From: a virus
DNA length: 21,564 nt
Reading direction: 5' to 3' (one strand)
IMG/VR virus record: IMGVR_UViG_3300007735_000470
Coordinates: 1 to 21,564 of that record
Shown: positions 763-21,053 of the stretch, in pieces
How positions within the stretch are numbered: the first letter of the stretch is position 1
Layout: every line of letters begins with the position of its first letter
Position numbers and translations under genes: made by a program
Notes under the pieces: generated by a model
Told to the model about the DNA's origin: nothing
The model's input: the letters and a program-made list of their open reading frames with translations, nothing else
Databases searched by the model: none

Positions 763-808
763 AAAAAATCCCTACCTCTGCCGACGGCTGGCGAGGTAGG
801 GATTTTTT
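763..808. terminator. Bidirectional intrinsic terminator
   Basis: The perfect 16-bp inverted repeat AAAAAATCCCTACCTC (763-778) / GAGGTAGGGATTTTTT (793-808) flanks a 14-base loop that can itself pair GCC/GGC. T-runs result on both strands, so it can end plus-strand transcription from 239-755 and minus-strand transcription of the late operon. The last two bases of the right arm are part of the epimerase stop codon at 807-809. Confidence 0.92.
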
Positions 809-1670
809 ATTGGGCTAGCGCTTGCGCTATTCCCTGCTCCAAAGAAATCTTTGGTTCATAAATCATATTCATATATCTTGGATTACCAACACGATATTCA
901 ACGCCAACTGGCGCGGTTGGATCAGTTTCAATTGGTGCTAAGTAACCAGCAGATAACATCATCATCTCTGCTAATTCAATAAAAGAGGTTGCCCTACCAG
1001 AGCAAATATTCATAACTTCAACGCCGTTAAGAACGGCTGCAAAAGTTGCTTCGACTATATCGTCAATGTGTACAAAATCTCTTACCTGATTACCAGTTCC
1101 CCATATTTTAAATGGAGATGCTTTTGCTTTTGCTCTAGCAACAAATGATGGGAATGGATAATCTAAAGATTGATCGTTGCCATATCCTGAAAATGGGCGA
1201 AGGATTGTTACCTTCAAGCCTTCATCTCTGGCATATTGCGCTAGCATCTCGCCAGTTAATTTACTCCAACCATAGGTTTGATCAGGAGTTCTAATGTGTT
1301 CTAAATTTATATCCTGCTCAGATAACATCGCTTTAAATCTTGCTCGCTGCAACATAATTGGATAAGCAGCAGAGGATGAGAAATAAACTATTCGCCCAGG
1401 GCGAGTTCTAAGCGCCCATTGAAATAGGTCAGAATCAATTGCCAGGTCAGTGGCAACTGCCAAAGGATTACCTTCAATGGTGGCACGGCCACCGACTACG
1501 GCTGCCAAATGAATTACAACATCAAAGTAGGTGTTATCGGTTGCAAAGAATTTGCGAGCCTCAGTGCCTGATTTAATATCAAAGCCAACTACATTATTAT
1601 TCTTTTTATCTAAGGCTCTATGAAATGCTTTACCTACAAAACCTTCATCACCTGTAATTAGGATTTTCAT
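807..1670 (-). CDS. NAD-dependent epimerase/dehydratase
   Basis: This is a short-chain dehydrogenase/reductase-type nucleotide-sugar epimerase or dehydratase of 287 residues. The N-terminal Rossmann motif is GDEGFVG (residues 7-13), followed by HLAA (54-57), the SSS active-site serine region (98-100) and YGWSK (Y133, K137), the catalytic Tyr-xxx-Lys pair. This set is complete, so it should be active on an NDP-sugar. The exact reaction (GDP-fucose synthase-like, UDP-glucose 4-epimerase-like or other) cannot be told from sequence reading alone. Its start overlaps the upstream glycosyltransferase stop by four bases (ATGA), implying coupled translation and joint work in virion or host glycan modification. 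It is the last gene of the minus-strand operon. Confidence 0.9.
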   Translation of the reverse strand: MKILITGDEGFVGKAFHRALDKKNNNVVGFDIKSGTEARKFFATDNTYFDVVIHLAAVVGGRATIEGNPLAVATDLAIDSDLFQWALRTRPGRIVYFSSSAAYPIMLQRARFKAMLSEQDINLEHIRTPDQTYGWSKLTGEMLAQYARDEGLKVTILRPFSGYGNDQSLDYPFPSFVARAKAKASPFKIWGTGNQVRDFVHIDDIVEATFAAVLNGVEVMNICSGRATSFIELAEMMMLSAGYLAPIETDPTAPVGVEYRVGNPRYMNMIYEPKISLEQGIAQALAQ

Positions 1671-2341
1671 TTAAGTTTAGCCAGCAATGTTTGGTATTGA
1701 TCGCTAGCAATAAAATTATCAAAGGCTACTTTATCTGCTGAGTAAACTTCTGGCGCGTTTACCCTGGCGTAATTCTCATCCATCGGCGCTTTGCCGTTAA
1801 AGGCGTGGCAATGTTCAATGATTACATCAGGTAGATATTTAATCTTACCTAAATCCTGCCCAAGTTTTAGCCAAAAATTATCTAGGTATAAATGGCGCTG
1901 GCTATCAGGCACCATTCCACGCAAGGCTTTTACAATCTCACCCGACATCGCAACCGCAGTTGGTAGGGCTGAGCCTTGGAATAGATCGTTGCCATAAACA
2001 ATATCTGAACCAGAGTAAAGTTCCTCAACAAACTTCTCATCCCAGTTAGCAGTTCTTGGGCGGTGATCATCACCCATAAATGCAAAGTTATCAAACTCGC
2101 CTATAAATTGGCGGGCAATGTAATTTAATGGGTAAGCCATCCCGCCAGTTTCATTATGAATCATAATTACAGATTCAACTGGTAATTTCCAGGAGTACTG
2201 GCTGCGAGTTTCATCATTAAAATCTACAATATAAAATCTTTTAGCCTTTGTGTTTGTATCTACAAAAGCCTGTTCTAAAGCGAGGGCATTATCTGGCCGA
2301 CCTCTAGTTGGAATTAAAACTACTAAATCACTTTCTACCAT
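1667..2341 (-). CDS. Glycosyltransferase-like protein
   Basis: This is a predicted nucleotide-sugar transferase with a GT-A-like fold. The chain begins with a beta strand and the loop VVLIPTRGRP (about residues 7-16), and has MGDDH near residues 90-93, the position of the metal-binding DxD-type motif. It is similar in style to small glycosyltransferases of actinophages. The start is set at ATG 2341 (224 residues) because GGGGGAG lies 8 bases upstream; a longer frame to 2422 would overlap the upstream gene by 95 bases and add an unlikely N-terminus. It overlaps the DUF6378 gene by 14 bases and the downstream epimerase by 4. It probably transfers the sugar made or modified by the neighbouring epimerase. 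Confidence 0.78.
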   Translation of the reverse strand: MVESDLVVLIPTRGRPDNALALEQAFVDTNTKAKRFYIVDFNDETRSQYSWKLPVESVIMIHNETGGMAYPLNYIARQFIGEFDNFAFMGDDHRPRTANWDEKFVEELYSGSDIVYGNDLFQGSALPTAVAMSGEIVKALRGMVPDSQRHLYLDNFWLKLGQDLGKIKYLPDVIIEHCHAFNGKAPMDENYARVNAPEVYSADKVAFDNFIASDQYQTLLAKLK

Positions 2342-2594
2342 TTGCCAACTCCCCCGCAATAGCAAAATAAGCCGCACCATCAATGAAGTTATCATCTTTG
2401 CAGGTTTCCATTGATCTTGCAATCTTAATTAAGGCACAAATCATAGCGCTTTGTTCTGGTGAAACTGGAACTTCAAGATAGGTAGATATGAATTGACTAA
2501 TCCGATTGAAGTTTACTTCAGGCGTGCCATAGGCTGATTGCCTATCAGAATGAGTTAGCCTTTTAGCCTCATCTAAAATTTTCCCCCGATCCAT
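2328..2594 (-). CDS. DUF6378 domain protein
   Basis: This 88-residue protein matches the pattern of the phage DUF6378 family: an N-terminal ILDEAKRLTHSDRQSAYG segment, a central NFNRISQF helix, then the ICALIKIAR and DNFIDGAAYFAIAGE helices. The helical layout with acidic residues is reminiscent of the MazG/all-alpha NTP pyrophosphatase class, but enzymatic activity is not shown here. The gene sits 3 bases after the holin-like gene and overlaps the glycosyltransferase start. It is an accessory gene at the end of the lysis cassette. Confidence 0.85.
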   Translation of the reverse strand: MDRGKILDEAKRLTHSDRQSAYGTPEVNFNRISQFISTYLEVPVSPEQSAMICALIKIARSMETCKDDNFIDGAAYFAIAGELANGRK

Positions 2595-3504: not shown

Positions 3505-3755
3505 TTAGTAATAACCAATACCATCATAGTTACAGTTCCTGCTGAAGTTATAGCATAAATAGGAGATTCGTGATTATTCAAAGTTATTTTATCTCCATTA
3601 TCCATTCGGTATCCATTAGATGTAGTTACATCTGCTCCGCCAATAAAACATTGACCAGAACTAGAATGAAGGTAAACTCCCTCAGCAACACCATCTCCTG
3701 CAACCAATAAAGTTGCAGCAGTAGTAACTGTTACCTGACTTGAACTAATAGGCAT
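3501..3755 (-). CDS. Small virion-associated protein, 84 residues
   Basis: The protein is short, beta-rich and full of Ser/Thr/Val/Gly, with motifs such as VYLHSSSGQCFIGGADVTTSNGY and a hydrophobic C-terminal strand. Such proteins commonly sit beside tail fibres in actinophages and are thought to be small virion or appendage components. AAGGAG precedes ATG 3755 by 5-6 bases. It ends in an ATGA overlap with the membrane protein gene. The function is unknown; assignment to the virion is from position and composition. Confidence 0.65.
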   Translation of the reverse strand: MPISSSQVTVTTAATLLVAGDGVAEGVYLHSSSGQCFIGGADVTTSNGYRMDNGDKITLNNHESPIYAITSAGTVTMMVLVITK

Positions 3756-3764
3756 AACTTCTCC

Positions 3765-3851
3765 TTAAATAAGCCCCGAATCCTCAATAGCATCAACTGC
3801 ATCATCGATGCTTCTAGTTATATCTGGGAAATCAAAGAGCAGCGATCTCAT
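3765..3851 (-). CDS. Short overlapping ORF or +1-frameshift extension
   Basis: A 28-codon frame starting at ATG 3851 overlaps the end of the 76-residue protein (3832-4062) in the +1 frame and ends at TAA 3765-3767. It fills most of what would otherwise be a 76-base gap in a tightly packed operon. Its peptide (FPDITRSIDDAVDAIEDSGLI) is acidic and helix-like. There is no properly spaced ribosome binding site for its own ATG. Alternatively it is reached from the upstream gene by a +1 slip at CTT-TGA (3837-3832), the same slip codons used in bacterial prfB, which would give a 98-residue fusion. Neither route is proven. Confidence 0.35.
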   Translation of the reverse strand: MRSLLFDFPDITRSIDDAVDAIEDSGLI

Positions 3852-4062
3852 CCTCAGTTAAACCAAGTGCTGCTAATTTAGCCCTAGCACTGGCGGCGGC
3901 TGCTGCTTTCGCATCTGCCTCTGCTGCTGCTGCTGCTCTCTGATCTTCAGCAGTCAATCTTGCAGTTTCTAAATCTGCAATTTCCTCAGCAGTTAATGGC
4001 ACTACTTCGGTAACTCCAGTCTCGCAATTTACGATGACTTTTGTAGGTGTGTCTGTTGACAT
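3832..4062 (-). CDS. Alanine-rich coiled-coil protein, 76 residues
   Basis: A short N-terminal domain (VIVNCETGVTEVVPLT) is followed by a continuous charged/alanine-rich helix (EEIADLETARLTAEDQ..., then runs of A with E/D/K/R) and an ending GLTEDEIAAL. This plan is common in small phage proteins placed with tail fibres, where it may be an assembly helper or a stalk. AAAGGAG precedes ATG 4062. The stop codon context is CTT-TGA-T, and the +1 frame stays open for 22 more codons. Confidence 0.7.
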   Translation of the reverse strand: MSTDTPTKVIVNCETGVTEVVPLTAEEIADLETARLTAEDQRAAAAAEADAKAAAAASARAKLAALGLTEDEIAAL

Positions 4063-4077
4063 TGTGTTGCTCCTTTG

Positions 4078-4593
4078 TTATGCGTTGGATATGCCGTATA
4101 AATAAAATGATGAACCTGTTACAAGTGAACCCGAACCATCTAAGCCAAACTTAATTTGAGTTATAGCGGCTGTGTTTGACCATAACGCTGCCTCTGCCAA
4201 AATATAAGCAGTAGCATTATTTCTTTCTGCTACATCAAATATAGACATTGGTTTATTTTGACTAACAGTATAAGAAGGAATATATAACTCACCACTACTA
4301 AAAGTGCTTGCAGTACCGCTAGTTCCTGGAACCCTCAAATATCCTATAAAGGGTTGAGATGTTGCTCTAGCCGAAGTAGCACTCGCACCATCACCCATTA
4401 AATAAGTTTCACTAATACCTGATGCAGTTGCATTTAATTCTATATAGGCAAGTCTTTCTGTTACTGCGGCATCACACCTAGCCGAATAACGCAACACCAA
4501 ATCCGTATAGGTAGCAGGTATTGATGAGAAGGTAACAGATGCAGCAGATGATGTTAAAACATTTGAACTGATTAAGGTATATGTGGCTGGCAA
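4078..4593 (-). CDS. Tail appendage protein, paralogue 1
   Basis: This 171-residue beta-rich protein is one of three tandem paralogues. All share an N-terminal segment of the form S-x-VTFSSIPATYTDLVLRYS and a C-terminal segment of the form AAITQIKFGLDG...FYLYGI. The pattern is that of small phage appendage modules that probably form a beta-sandwich for receptor or glycan binding. The start is TTG at 4593, supported by AGGAG 6 bases upstream; no ATG fits. The AGGAG overlaps the stop region of the preceding gene. Confidence 0.75.
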   Translation of the reverse strand: MPATYTLISSNVLTSSAASVTFSSIPATYTDLVLRYSARCDAAVTERLAYIELNATASGISETYLMGDGASATSARATSQPFIGYLRVPGTSGTASTFSSGELYIPSYTVSQNKPMSIFDVAERNNATAYILAEAALWSNTAAITQIKFGLDGSGSLVTGSSFYLYGISNA

Positions 4594-10687: not shown

Positions 10688-11095
10688 TTATGATGTTGCT
10701 TTTGTTATTGCACCTGAGATTGGCCAGGTAACGCTTGCTGTACTTAGTTCACCAACGGCTCCTGATAGCGGTTGCCATTCAGAAACTAAAGCGTTGAAAC
10801 TATATTGTGGATTTGTTGCGGTTGTAGTTCCTGCTACTGGTTTTACAATCATTGCAGCAGATGTTCCGATTGTTGGATAAATAATAGATTCTAAGGCACC
10901 AGATGCAAAATCCTGGAAAAATTCTATTGTTACCTGATTATCGGCCAATCCTGCAACTCTTGTCCGACTTAAATTTCCAAATGATGTTGTATCTACAACA
11001 TCTAGTGATGTACTTAAAGTTACTGAACTTACATAACTTGAAATATCAGTACTTGCAAAAGTAATTGAAGCATTAGTTAATACAATTCTTGCCAT
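10688..11095 (-). CDS. Tail-tube (major tail) protein, copy 2
   Basis: This 135-residue beta-rich protein is a close paralogue of the gene directly upstream: about two-thirds of the residues match and the last 30 or so are nearly the same (LVSEWQPLSGAVGELS...). Position before the tail chaperone and after the connectors, length and beta/Thr/Ser-rich composition identify it as a tail-tube protein. Its start overlaps the upstream stop as TAATG. Two tube-like subunits could form a mixed tube, or one copy could be a specialised terminal ring or decoration; this cannot be decided from sequence. Confidence 0.8.
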   Translation of the reverse strand: MARIVLTNASITFASTDISSYVSSVTLSTSLDVVDTTSFGNLSRTRVAGLADNQVTIEFFQDFASGALESIIYPTIGTSAAMIVKPVAGTTTATNPQYSFNALVSEWQPLSGAVGELSTASVTWPISGAITKATS

Positions 11096-11505
11096 TATGC
11101 AACCGCCTTAGTAATTGCTCCTGAGATTGGCCAAGTAACAGATGCGGTTGATAATTCACCAACTGCCCCTGATAGTGGTTGCCACTCTGAAACTAAAGCA
11201 GTAAATGTATAGGAAGGATTTGTTGCACTTGCTGCTGATGAAGTTGGTAATACTACAACTGAAGTAGTAGTTCCAAGCAATGGGTAAATTGTTTGTTCAA
11301 CTAAGGATGTTGCAAAATCTTGGAAAAACTCGATAGTTACTGAATTATCTTGCAAACCAGCAACGCGAGTTCTAGCAGCAGTTGATGAAAACCCAGTTGT
11401 TTCCACTACATCAGTTGATGTATTTAAAGTTACACTTGAGATATATGATGAAAGGTTTACTGAATTAATTGTAACCTTTGCATCGGTTAATACGATTCTT
11501 GCCAT
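11095..11505 (-). CDS. Tail-tube (major tail) protein, copy 1
   Basis: This 136-residue paralogue of the following gene shares MARIVLT at the N-terminus, RTRVAGL, VTIEFFQDFA, TNPSYTF and a near-identical C-terminal third. In actinophages tail-tube subunits of this type carry the same features: VTL...DVVETT, followed by RTRVAGL and VTIEFFQDF. It begins in a TAATG overlap with the 58-residue upstream protein. One of the two copies is likely the main tube subunit; which one is the more abundant is not visible here. Confidence 0.85.
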   Translation of the reverse strand: MARIVLTDAKVTINSVNLSSYISSVTLNTSTDVVETTGFSSTAARTRVAGLQDNSVTIEFFQDFATSLVEQTIYPLLGTTTSVVVLPTSSAASATNPSYTFTALVSEWQPLSGAVGELSTASVTWPISGAITKAVA

Positions 11506-11681
11506 TATTTGTCGGCTCCTTCTTGGATTGCTGGTTTGGTTGTTCCCCCAGTTGTCTTAATGTGGTTACCAGCAATCAATGCCTCGATGTTGGCTCCTGC
11601 ATTAAGCAATTCTTTTTCGGTGATTGCATCACCTTTCTTTTTATTACAAACCTCTACTTCTGAGGTAATTATGTAAGACAT
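11505..11681 (-). CDS. Small head-tail region protein, 58 residues
   Basis: This short gene fills the space between the tail terminator-like gene and the tail-tube genes. The protein begins MSYIITSEVEVCNKKKGD, continues with ITEKELLNAGANIEALIAGNHI, and has a polar C-terminus rich in Thr/Lys. AAGGAG lies 5-6 bases before ATG 11681 and the stop overlaps the next ATG (TAATG, 11503-11507), so it fits the operon exactly. Small proteins of this type occur at the same place in many actinophages, but their role is unknown. Confidence 0.85.
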   Translation of the reverse strand: MSYIITSEVEVCNKKKGDAITEKELLNAGANIEALIAGNHIKTTGGTTKPAIQEGADK

Positions 11682-17334: not shown

Positions 17335-19022
17335 TACTCATCACCCTCCATGAACTCCTCAATAATTTCATCAATGCGGCCTTCTTTATCACGCTTAACT
17401 TTCTTGCGAACTCGCTTGCGTTCAATAGTATTTGTTACCTGAACATTTGGCGCTTCAACATTTACATTAGGCGCAGCAACATTTACCTCTGGTGATTCAA
17501 GCATTACCATCGCTGGCTCAACAGTTACATTAGGTGCAGCAACATTTACAGTTGGCTCTGGCACATTAACTACTGTTTGCTGATTATCATTTCTGCGGCT
17601 CTTTACTTCATAAACTCCACTTGGATCGCTTGGATCAATTGAGGAGATTTGTTGCAATTGGCTACTTGGAACGCCAGTGTGTTTCATCTTTGGCAATCCA
17701 ACGGCTGCATTAACTGCGGCAGGATCAAAGCCAACCTGAATAAGTTGAGCAGCAATTTCAGTTCTTAACTTCAAACCAACATCTTTAGCATCGGCTGCAT
17801 CAATGTTTTGTAGAGGAACTCTGTATTGATCGCCAGCCTCGCCTAGTGGTGATAAATCCTCAACTGAGCGAACATCGTTTAAACTTAGGAAACCTTCACG
17901 CAAACCTTTTGTATAAGCATCGTAGCGTTCAATAGTTGTTCCGCGTAGAAGTGCATCAAGATTAAATTTAACAAAGCCATCTTTCTCAGGTAGTAATGAT
18001 GAAAGCGCTTGCTCAATTCTTTCTAACAATGGGCGAAGTGAGTGTTGTACAAATGAAAGGTTCTGCGCTTCAACGCTAGCAAAACTCATTGCACCTGCTA
18101 CTGGATGCCCTAATAGTGAAATCGGAACTCGGAACAAACGGGCCACTTCCTCAAGTCCAAATCTCCTTGAATCTAAGAGTTGAGCATCTTGGGCATTTAG
18201 TGCAAGTGGTTTAAATGATGCACCACCTGTTAGCACGCCAATCTTTCCTGCACGATATGGGCCTGAGTGAGTGATATTCCAATCGCGGCCAATTGATGTT
18301 GCCTGCTCCTCGGTCATTTCACCAGGTACTTCAATGATTCCACCAGGGTTTGCTGCGTTTCCAAAATAAGATGCAGCATAAGTATCGGCTGCCATTACTG
18401 CACCAAGAGTAATTCTTGCTGCTTCAATTGGGCCTAAGCCATAGAAAGAACCAGGAAGTTTAAATAGCGGAATATGTAATAACTCATCTTTAGTAAGGGT
18501 CATTACTTTCTGGTTGTAATCTTGAGTATAGGTTCCGCCTGCTGGATCGTATTCTTTAATTGTTACTTCATAAACAACTGGCTCATTAGGATTTTTTCTA
18601 ACAATTCTTACTGATTCAGGATTGATGCAATAAAGTTCTACAACATCACCCATATCATCACGAACTGTAAGGATGTAAGCATTTCCACGAAGGTTTAAAG
18701 AAGCAAGAACTTGCTCTAAAAATTCCATTCGAGTTGATTCGCCATTTGGTTTATTTACCCAAGTTGGAACATCGCCATAAACTGCGGCATAAGAAATTCT
18801 ATTGCGACCTCTGCGAACATAGGCGCCCATTGGTAATGATGAAATTGTATCGCCTAGCAAACGAACGCAAGCATAAACTGTACTCATGCGGATTGCAGTT
18901 TCAGATGAAACTACAACTCCTGCTGGTGAACTATATGCAGGGCGGCCTGGAACTAGCGGTTCAACAAATTGATTTGTTGCTCGCTTCTCACCAGCCTGGC
19001 GCAATGCTCTTGATAAATTCAT
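17334..19022 (-). CDS. Portal protein (HK97-type)
   Basis: This is a 562-residue portal with the usual N-terminal block (MSTVYACVRLLGDTISSLP near residues 47-65), NLRGNAYI, IPLFKLPGSFYGLGPI, and EEVARLFRVPISLLG before the VEAQNLSFVQHSLRPLLERIE helix. It makes the dodecameric DNA channel at the capsid vertex. A C-terminal extension after about residue 480 has repeats of the form VNVAAPNVxVE, then a very basic stretch (ERKRVRKKVKRDKEGRIDEII). Its ATG overlaps the stop of the small membrane protein gene as TAATG. Confidence 0.95.
   Translation of the reverse strand: MNLSRALRQAGEKRATNQFVEPLVPGRPAYSSPAGVVVSSETAIRMSTVYACVRLLGDTISSLPMGAYVRRGRNRISYAAVYGDVPTWVNKPNGESTRMEFLEQVLASLNLRGNAYILTVRDDMGDVVELYCINPESVRIVRKNPNEPVVYEVTIKEYDPAGGTYTQDYNQKVMTLTKDELLHIPLFKLPGSFYGLGPIEAARITLGAVMAADTYAASYFGNAANPGGIIEVPGEMTEEQATSIGRDWNITHSGPYRAGKIGVLTGGASFKPLALNAQDAQLLDSRRFGLEEVARLFRVPISLLGHPVAGAMSFASVEAQNLSFVQHSLRPLLERIEQALSSLLPEKDGFVKFNLDALLRGTTIERYDAYTKGLREGFLSLNDVRSVEDLSPLGEAGDQYRVPLQNIDAADAKDVGLKLRTEIAAQLIQVGFDPAAVNAAVGLPKMKHTGVPSSQLQQISSIDPSDPSGVYEVKSRRNDNQQTVVNVPEPTVNVAAPNVTVEPAMVMLESPEVNVAAPNVNVEAPNVQVTNTIERKRVRKKVKRDKEGRIDEIIEEFMEGDE
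17433..17582 (-). repeat. Direct repeats in portal C-terminus
   Basis: Two close copies of ttacattaggygcagcaac start at 17462 and 17525, a 63-base (21-codon) period. They encode VNVAAPNV repeats with shorter related units (VNVPEPTVNV, VNVEAPNVQV), which look like a beta-strand repeat arm. Confidence 0.75.
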
Positions 19023-19162
19023 TAATTACCTTTTTCTGTAATCCATACTAAAAAACTTCCAACCGCAATTAAAGCAACTGGAATTGAAATAAGTGCCAAG
19101 CCTGTTGTTACGCAGGCAACCCCTACTACCTCTACTAACAAAGTAGGATTTATCTTTTTCAT
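19022..19162 (-). CDS. Small membrane protein upstream of portal, 46 residues
   Basis: The 46-residue product has a short basic N-terminus (MKKINPTLL) and one long hydrophobic segment (about residues 13-41: VVGVACVTTGLALI...SFLVW) ending in a charged tail. GGGGGAG precedes ATG 19162 and the stop overlaps the portal start (TAATG). It is the first gene after the large-terminase/portal gap, so it may be the first cistron of a transcript starting from the candidate promoter at 19233-19262. The function is unknown. Confidence 0.82.
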   Translation of the reverse strand: MKKINPTLLVEVVGVACVTTGLALISIPVALIAVGSFLVWITEKGN

Positions 19163-19232
19163 TACTCCCCCTTAGTGTTGAAATCATTAGTCAAATCGTG
19201 GCGTGTCTTTTAATTTTTTGTAATTATTACGC

Positions 19233-19262
19233 ATAATAAATTGCAATTTATGTAATTGTAAA
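19233..19262 (-). promoter_or_regulatory. Candidate minus-strand promoter for the structural operon
   Basis: On the minus strand TTTACA (19262-19257) and TATTAT (19238-19233) are separated by 18 bases. It would drive the small membrane protein, portal and downstream genes independently of the terminase genes. Its spacer overlaps the palindrome at 19236-19251. Confidence 0.45.
19236..19251. promoter_or_regulatory. 16-bp palindrome, candidate operator
   Basis: ATAAATTGCAATTTAT is a perfect palindrome located between the minus-strand -35 and -10 elements and just upstream of the plus-strand promoter. A second short dyad, GTAAT-T-ATTAC, lies at 19220-19230. The arrangement fits a dimeric repressor or activator controlling divergent transcription. 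Confidence 0.5.
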
Positions 19263-19280
19263 AAATGCCAAAAGTATAAT
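19251..19280 (+). promoter_or_regulatory. Candidate plus-strand promoter for cysteine-rich mini-genes
   Basis: A perfect TATAAT is at 19275-19280. The best -35 at the expected distance is TGTAAT (19251-19256, 18-base spacer), which is weak, so an activator may be needed. The predicted start point would be near 19287. Confidence 0.5.
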
Positions 19281-19286
19281 TAAGGC

Positions 19287-19311
19287 AGTGGTTAGGAAAT
19301 ACTTAATCACT
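19287..19311 (+). promoter_or_regulatory. 5-prime leader hairpin
   Basis: AGTGGTTA (19287-19294) can pair with TAATCACT (19304-19311) over 8 base pairs including one G-U, with a 9-base loop. It starts at about the predicted transcription start and ends directly before the AAGGAAGG ribosome binding site, so it could protect the message or regulate ribosome access. Confidence 0.5.
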
Positions 19312-19325
19312 AAGGAAGGTCAAAA

Positions 19326-19427
19326 ATGAAATGCTGTAATCACTTAGTAGTAAAGCAAGGATGCCAGTGCCATAATTGCAGTGGTTATCTCTGTAAAGTA
19401 GGGAGAGTTAATAATGAAAAGCAATAA
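19326..19427 (+). CDS. Cysteine-rich mini-protein, 33 residues
   Basis: This short frame begins at ATG 19326, 6 bases after AAGGAAGG. The product contains six cysteines and two histidines (MKCCNH, QGCQCHNCSGYLC), enough to bind one or two zinc or other metal ions. It runs opposite to all neighbouring late genes and has its own candidate promoter. It overlaps the next plus-strand gene by 14 bases. It may be a regulator or host-interaction factor; no family is recognised. Confidence 0.6.
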   Translation: MKCCNHLVVKQGCQCHNCSGYLCKVGRVNNEKQ

Positions 19428-19527
19428 GAAAACCTTAAAATGCCCACTATGTAAAACTGATATTCGCTTCAGTGTTACTAGAGGTTTATATTGCCCTAAT
19501 TCAAAATGTGATAATGAATTAGATTAA
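19414..19527 (+). CDS. Zinc-ribbon mini-protein, 37 residues
   Basis: The product has a basic N-terminus (MKSNKKTLK) and a C-P-L-C ... C-P-N-S-K-C layout (CxxC, 14 residues, CxxxxC), which is a small zinc ribbon. GGGAGA precedes ATG 19414 with 7 bases of spacing. Its TAA (19525-19527) overlaps the convergent large-terminase stop (19524-19526). Single-ribbon proteins of this size are often nucleic-acid or RNA-polymerase binding factors, so it may control late transcription; this is inference. Confidence 0.72.
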   Translation: MKSNKKTLKCPLCKTDIRFSVTRGLYCPNSKCDNELD

Positions 19528-21053
19528 ACCTGAATAGAGAAATATCTAGTAACAGGCGCTTTAGGTTCAGGCGGCTGCGTGGCTCGATCATAACCAAAGA
19601 TTGAGGCAACAGCCGCATCGACCTTTCGACGGCTAGAAGCCTTGGCTACCATTACTCCTCTTGAGGATTGCTTGGTAACGCAGTTTGAGATGTGGCGGGC
19701 CAAGCGTTCATCGCCATCGTGAGTAAATGATCCATTAACGACGGCTTCATAAAACTTTTGCGTTGCAGGTACCATTCGTTCCGCCGAGTTTGGATAACTA
19801 ACAACTGGTAAGCCGTTCTCATCAAGTACCATGAAGGTTCGTTGCCATCTTGCTGGATCGAATACAACTTCTCTAACTTGGAATCTTGAATCTCGGTAAA
19901 CATCAATTATTGTTTTTTCAACTTCAGCAACTGGAACAAACCAACCTTGCTCTGCATCGTGTGGCTTCTCCCAAATTCCAACAACTTTTAAATGTGGTTT
20001 CTCGCCACCTAAGAACCAAGCAACTAATGCAGTTGAATCATTTGAGAACGCTCCATCAAATGCTAGAACTACATCCTCGCCAGGAATATCCTCGCGCTCT
20101 GTATCAATGATTGCTTCCCAAGCGCCAGTTGGTAGCCAGGCGGTTTGAGTGCTAACAAAACAATTTATTCGCTTCGTTCTAAATTCTGCTTCAGGAGTTC
20201 GTAATACCGCGCTCTCAAAATCCTCAAGATCAACAATATCCCCAATGCCAGGATTAGCCTCTTGCCATAATTGCGGATCACGATAATCACCCTCTGGTTT
20301 CTCTGGCTCCCACCAAGCAAAGAAAAAACTTGGATCAACATTTTCACCCTTAGCAATTCTCTGACCATATTGGTAGAGAGAGTAGCAAAGTGAATCTTGC
20401 CCACTAGTTGCAGTTTTAACTCCAGCAGTGGTGATGCCAAAGAGAAGTGAATCTTGCCTAGCACCACCTGCAAGGCTCATTACATCCCATAGTTCTCGAT
20501 TGGGTTGAGCGTGAACCTCATCAAAAATAATTATTGGCGAAGGATTTAAACCTTCTTTTGTGTAGGCTTCAGCAGATAGAACTCTGTAAACTGAACCCTT
20601 ATCTTTAAACTCAATTGCATCTTTGTATAAAGTAAACATTGTAGATAGTTCAGGGTCTAACTCAACCATCCGCTTTGCAGTACCAAAAACAATTCGGGCT
20701 TGATCTCTATCGGCTGCGCAAGAATAAATTTCAGAACCATTACCGCCAAGAGTTAAACCTGCTAAACCAACGCTAGCAGCGAGTGCGGATTTGCCGTTCT
20801 TTCTAGCCATTCCGATTAGCGCGGTGCGATGTTTAAATCTGCCGTTTTCTTTTCTTGCCAAAGCGTGATTTAAAAGTTGCTTCTGCCAATCACGCAAAAC
20901 TAATAACTCACCAGCAGGTGCTGCAATTGAATCTTTAGTAACTCTACAAACGGCTTCTGCAAACTGGCTATAAAGCGGCCCATCGCCTGCGGCAATCTCT
21001 GCCTCTGCAACTGGCGTTAGCCAACGCGGTGGCCAGGAATTAGTTTGTTGCAT
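19524..21053 (-). CDS. terL: Terminase large subunit
   Basis: The 509-residue protein is the ATP-driven packaging motor with nuclease. The ATPase has the Walker A-type ARKNGKS (residues 83-89) and Walker B IIIFDE (174-179), followed by the coupling motif GITTAG (206-211). The nuclease domain begins at LAFDGAFSNDST (D333), a likely metal ligand, with further acidic residues (VVFDPARW; KVDAAVA) towards the C-terminus. The length is standard for the family and no break is seen. It overlaps the small-subunit gene by 14 bases. The stop codon overlaps that of the convergent zinc-ribbon gene. Confidence 0.96.
   Translation of the reverse strand: MQQTNSWPPRWLTPVAEAEIAAGDGPLYSQFAEAVCRVTKDSIAAPAGELLVLRDWQKQLLNHALARKENGRFKHRTALIGMARKNGKSALAASVGLAGLTLGGNGSEIYSCAADRDQARIVFGTAKRMVELDPELSTMFTLYKDAIEFKDKGSVYRVLSAEAYTKEGLNPSPIIIFDEVHAQPNRELWDVMSLAGGARQDSLLFGITTAGVKTATSGQDSLCYSLYQYGQRIAKGENVDPSFFFAWWEPEKPEGDYRDPQLWQEANPGIGDIVDLEDFESAVLRTPEAEFRTKRINCFVSTQTAWLPTGAWEAIIDTEREDIPGEDVVLAFDGAFSNDSTALVAWFLGGEKPHLKVVGIWEKPHDAEQGWFVPVAEVEKTIIDVYRDSRFQVREVVFDPARWQRTFMVLDENGLPVVSYPNSAERMVPATQKFYEAVVNGSFTHDGDERLARHISNCVTKQSSRGVMVAKASSRRKVDAAVASIFGYDRATQPPEPKAPVTRYFSIQV

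Follow-up and report, generated by a model that had tools for sequence, protein, structure and literature searches.

In the 21,564-nt stretch of viral DNA analyzed here in full (the window; IMG/VR record IMGVR_UViG_3300007735_000470), a module of about 351 bp is inserted directly after the large terminase gene, terL, and carries two overlapping genes for cysteine-rich microproteins. We consider it probable, with some reserve, that this module belongs to a mobile, self-promoted family of morons encoding early-acting zinc-ribbon microproteins for host takeover or counter-defence. Comparison of related sequences established the structure and mobility of the module, the coding nature of its genes, and the conservation of its leader and hairpin; the roles ascribed below to its parts are predictions. 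In the published literature that we covered, mostly papers outside subscription journals, such a module was not described.

An inserted module behind the large terminase gene

The initial annotation had called attention to a 33-residue ORF with six cysteines and a 37-residue zinc-ribbon ORF, overlapping one another and oriented against the late operon. Both were found as described and are here termed genes A and B. They overlap by 14 nt, and the stop codon of B overlaps that of terL, again as noted earlier. The pair had been placed between terL and portal; it does lie behind terL, but a 46-aa late gene intervenes before portal, and the inserted unit proved larger than the pair itself. The features of the locus, in window coordinates, are as follows.

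19175-19524, + strand: whole inserted module; bounds good to a few bases, from comparison with empty sites, spacing and GC
19187-19207, + strand: far-upstream box, consensus TTTGTCAAATNRTGGCGTGTC; sole match in the window
19275-19280, + strand: -10 hexamer TATAAT of a putative promoter, within conserved CAAAAGTATAATT, from alignment of upstream regions
19288-19310, + strand: leader hairpin with nine core pairs and an AAAUA loop, from covariation and folding
19312-19319, + strand: Shine-Dalgarno sequence AAGGAAGG of gene A; relatives keep an AGGA/GGAGG-type site
19326-19427, + strand: gene A, 33 aa, MKCCNH...CQCHNC..G..C, six Cys and two His, from conservation and selection
19414-19527, + strand: gene B, 37 aa, four Cys, zinc-ribbon-like, from conservation and selection
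19022-19162, - strand: 46-aa late gene outside the module, encoding a putative membrane protein (phrog_502, E 7.5e-7)
19524-21053, - strand: terL, the convergent neighbor outside the module (Pfam TerL_ATPase and TerL_nuclease)

A terL scan yielded 80 relatives, and the spacing between terL and portal was read wherever portal was also present. The distance was 148-153 bp in the 81-84% clade, and the same spacing was seen in five members of the 95-98% clade (L010, L011, L016, L021 and L023); these represent empty sites. In the remaining relatives with portal it was 437-598 bp, the window having 504 bp. The version of about 150 bp contains the 46-aa late-strand gene alone, and this gene is present in empty and filled relatives alike. 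Absence of the module from close relatives means that it is dispensable for the lineage.

Junction comparison with the empty sites placed the start of the insert between the ribosome-binding site of the 46-aa gene and the terL stop codon. The GC content of the insert is 30.9%, deviating from the approximately 40% of the phage. A transposon or homing element was rejected as an explanation, since the insert holds mini-ORFs only, with no recombinase or endonuclease gene, and its junctions lack terminal repeats or a clear target duplication. The empty and filled sites, the deviant GC content and the conserved 5' region strongly support the earlier suggestion that a moron-like element was inserted at a core position. 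As with other phage morons, the module is accessory DNA of deviant composition, with a promoter-like sequence, and it separates genes that are direct neighbors in relatives. It differs in having one conserved head across unrelated phages, behind which the genes are exchanged, and the window copy has no convincing terminator after it, in agreement with the initial annotation. A GC-rich hairpin occupies the terminator place in one other lineage (L104-L113). On the sequences compared, what appears new relative to morons is this pairing of a shared regulatory head with swappable cargo.

Coding by the mini-genes and conservation of the head

Cysteine-richness was rejected as proof of coding. About 10 Cys-rich mini-ORFs are expected in each dinucleotide-shuffled copy of the window, so composition alone is not significant and the evidence for coding has to be comparative. 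In relatives, all six Cys and both His of gene A and all four Cys of gene B are invariant, and the Cys and His positions of the sister genes D/E are likewise invariant. For gene A, pN was 0.16 versus a pS of 0.77 (pN/pS about 0.21); dN/dS was 0.17 for gene B and ranged from 0.08 to 0.23 over genes B-F. The window form corresponds to an A+C+B-like form minus about 94 bp, a deletion whose ends connect the beginning of C with the main part of B and preserve the frame, and gene B of the window begins on the former start of gene C. Loss of the cysteines or the frame, for which the initial annotation had pointed to relatives of equal intergenic length, did not occur. Judged from these comparisons, A and B are genuine genes whose proteins are under purifying selection. 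That they are chance open frames in intergenic DNA would accord with the ease with which shuffled sequence gives Cys-rich mini-ORFs, but the invariant Cys and His residues, the low pN/pS, the frame kept through the 94-bp deletion and the in-frame fusions described below make this a negligible prospect.

Gene A had a family match in none of the libraries searched, and its Cys/His pattern matched no known fold in a fold search. Gene B and genes D/E share a CxxC...C(x4-5)C spacing and gave weak Pfam matches to Zn_ribbon_recom, Zn_Ribbon_1, FLYWCH and Zn_ribbon_Brz; all of these generic zinc-ribbon matches, including those of B, fell below curated cut-offs, none was a full-length family match, and gene A fits none of them. 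AlphaFold2 models were of moderate confidence (pLDDT 72 and, for B, 76), Foldseek returned unspecific hits with E above 1, and solved structures and folds gave nothing specific for the module proteins. Among isolated-phage records, A, B and the module DNA had no match and D a chance-level match only.

The constant 5' region of about 140 nt comprises the far-upstream box, TATAAT, the start-proximal hairpin and the Shine-Dalgarno sequence. The box (TTTGTCAAATNRTGGCGTGT) is followed by TATAAT 84, 85 or 95 bp further on in every one of the 30 distinct regions containing that hexamer; the longest of these distances is greater by one helical turn. At most one copy of the box occurs per record, and it was therefore rejected both as an operator acting genome-wide and as a general motif of promoters. 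The initial annotation had also assigned the pair its own promoter and leader. In the alignment of upstream regions, the -10 of the putative promoter is strongly conserved and a conserved -35 is absent; the leader is a covarying hairpin. A perfect 16-nt palindrome, ATAAATTGCAATTTAT, lies between the box and the -10 (19236-19251); only part of the relatives keep it, and it was rejected as an operator. The sequence TTGAAATCATTTGTCAA, which might be read as a Zur-like (zinc-regulator) site, is also found in part of the relatives only.

All nine core pairs of the hairpin form in 20 of 20 distinct sequences, with 10 double changes. The covariation score exceeded that of 500 of 500 shuffles, a result that relatedness of the sequences can inflate, and slid controls also scored much lower. 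More distant loci (L123, L130, L134 and L136-L139) also have a hairpin in this position, one whose stem is unrelated. Rfam held no match for the leader. As an independent test of the head, a search with the box alone returned 47 contigs, among them three new modules (L189, L200 and L192) that have both a correctly spaced TATAAT and a hairpin; each is oriented antisense and separates a terL from the late gene next to it. In the other new matches no TATAAT stood at the proper distance, and we took these to be chance or coding sequence.

Conserved translation-start leaders are also known from actinobacteriophages. The SAS/ESAS leaders of cluster K mycobacteriophages are 13-bp GGGATAGGAGCCC repeats present in 11-19 copies per genome, half of them with upstream inverted repeats (PMC3203893). 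The module leader is not of this kind: its sequence differs by inspection, there is at most one head per record, and it is accompanied by the far-upstream box and TATAAT.

Exchange of cargo and spread among phages

The cargo behind the constant head varies, with arrangements of A+B (the window), A+C+B, A+E, an in-frame A-F fusion, D, E, and D+B. Most are Cys4-type mini-proteins and a few are non-zinc. The new module of L192 encodes a further Cys4 protein; those of L189 and L200 encode a non-zinc 70-aa protein similar to that of the second L084 ORF, which shows that the cargo need not be of zinc type. A 30-row terL tree has at least 13 changes of cargo type and 6 changes between presence and absence of the module, four of the latter being forced by well-supported branches. 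The nearest relative of the window in this tree, L017, has an A gene whose DNA is 87-88% identical to that of L088 and L087 and only 57% identical to that of the window, and no related terL was found in the L087 and L088 records.

A partial leader copy (AATACTTAATCACAAAGGAG) precedes some second genes, in L088 and L008. At 2890-3330 of L173, a tandem array of four tiny Cys/His-rich genes lies in a replication operon, and all four junctions are the same 15-nt seam, GGAGGCAAARTAATG (Shine-Dalgarno sequence, 'EAK stop' and the next ATG), as if made for shuffling. The partial leader copies and these seams suggest that exchange occurs at short shared sequences.

Searching with the leader DNA and gene A revealed the same head in phages with other neighbors. 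It adjoins an exonuclease and an HslV-like gene in L084, L087, L088, L090 and L095, lies behind a different terminase in L102, and in L104-L107, L109 and L111-L113 adjoins a holin-like gene, so labeled by position and sequence, the family match being unnamed. In the records of these groups, several of them fragments, a terL or portal similar to that of the window is absent or reaches only 24-33% identity. The junction behind terL is occupied by an antisense module in L102 (9276-10634), L189 (10022-11389), L192 (1713-3092) and the window (19524). Since the terL genes concerned are of two or more unrelated kinds, this junction looks like a preferred or tolerated site. HslV/proteasome-like proteins were noted in two otherwise different module phages, in L088 by family match (3714-4316) and in L106 (9518-11506) by eye, the latter assignment concerning 10937-11506. 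In a more distant phage group, the gene convergent with the D-type gene encodes a zinc-ribbon protein (L134, 5147-5323, with a weak Zn_ribbon_8 match; L136, 5347-5523), and behind D there is another Cys-rich ORF in L136.

The gene A copies of L110 and L173 lie in replication operons, close to genes for a prim-pol, a RusA-like resolvase and a replication initiator, and a head of this type is absent. These locations point to an early role.

Predicted role and alternative explanations

WhiB was present in 8 of 10 module-bearing records and, among control genomes, in the actinobacterium only; its presence in most of the larger records indicates that the hosts are actinobacterial. Among isolated phages, Pontimonas phage phiPsal1 is the closest by terL (50%), and freshwater 'Ca. 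Nanopelagicales' have a GC content of 42% (PMC6802176). We infer that the host is likely to be 'Ca. Nanopelagicales' or another low-GC actinobacterium. WhiB-like proteins of actinophages have been proposed to help manipulate the host (PMC10202952). These small regulators resemble the module products in being Cys-rich and in occurring in the same phages; unlike these products, which have no WhiB family match, WhiB is encoded by a separate gene in these records.

We propose that host RNA polymerase would read the module from the TATAAT, against the late operon, with expression occurring at an early stage of infection or without dependence on that of the late genes. A regulator bound to the box may set this expression; the spacing, constant apart from a step of one helical turn, resembles that of a class-I activator site. 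The hairpin would stabilize or regulate the short mRNA. RNA binding by a tiny zinc-finger protein, as with Com of phage Mu, is a useful model for control through the hairpin. The module is not itself a gpCom system: the tiny Cys4 format is shared with this translational activator (phrog_13819), but A, B and D/E have no match to it, gene C, which is absent from the window, matches only weakly (E 0.0084), and no mom-like gene was noticed beside the module. The overlapping genes would be translated in a coupled way, and their products, which probably act early in infection, are predicted to be zinc-binding and to associate with components of the host's transcription, translation or defence. Changing hosts or defences would favor swapping of the products, and spread would proceed via recombination at shared leader and Shine-Dalgarno seams and not by a transposase of the module's own. 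The possible regulatory or host-takeover role that had been suggested fits the swapped cargo and the gene A copies in replication operons.

Loci caught up in an arms race typically turn over fast at a fixed position, and cargo is exchanged between unrelated phages; the module might on these grounds be a counter-defence locus in which each swapped microprotein blocks a particular host nuclease or restriction-type defence and does not take over the machinery. We regard this as rather unlikely. A defence library, which models defence and not anti-defence proteins, gave nothing convincing, and inhibition of CRISPR would be unlikely if the host belongs to the Nanopelagicales, reported to be without CRISPR-Cas (PMC10202952). 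A moron of lysogenic conversion, expressed from a prophage and altering the host, for example by excluding other phages, in place of acting early in lytic growth, would behave as classic morons do, and the record of the close relative L004 carries a tyrosine integrase. None was found in the nine other records searched, many of them fragments, and gene A elsewhere resides in replication operons. Moreover, gene A was not found in cellular genomes, including the GTDB genome contigs, where prophages would appear, and we judge this account improbable.

The initial annotation had also raised antisense transcription towards terL, and such an effect is possible in the window since no convincing terminator precedes the terL sequence. 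It would be the main purpose of the module if the principal product were an RNA that extends into terL and delays or adjusts expression of packaging genes, and the recurrence of the antisense position behind at least two kinds of terL would suit such a regulator. Selection, however, is on the proteins, the GC-rich hairpin of L104-L113 would stop such a transcript, and the module is missing from close relatives. The same head also stands beside holin-like, exonuclease/HslV-like and other genes, so that antisense action on terL cannot be its general purpose. As an explanation of the module it is very improbable.

Returning to the mobile moron family that we favor, a broader formulation is possible, though we hold it to be doubtful: the module may represent a class of its own among the mobile expression cassettes of phages. 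Its conserved head, made up of a far-upstream operator, a promoter and an RNA hairpin, would have unrelated tiny effectors plugged in and out behind it and would perhaps be controlled by its own zinc microproteins or a host regulator, and the cassette would move between unrelated actinophages without its own recombinase. Few lake bacteria are as abundant as the freshwater actinobacteria, and to our knowledge almost nothing is known of how their phages take over the host. In these phages, one recognizable 5' signature leads to fast-changing microproteins too small for normal annotation. The signature could be used to search for early phage effectors, and the family may be a natural example of unrelated phages exchanging promoter-led cassettes.

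Elsewhere in the window (807-2422), an ORF resembling sugar-nucleotide epimerases/dehydratases adjoins a glycosyltransferase-like ORF, both as recognized by eye; L110 also has an epimerase-like ORF of this kind, located two genes upstream of its gene A.
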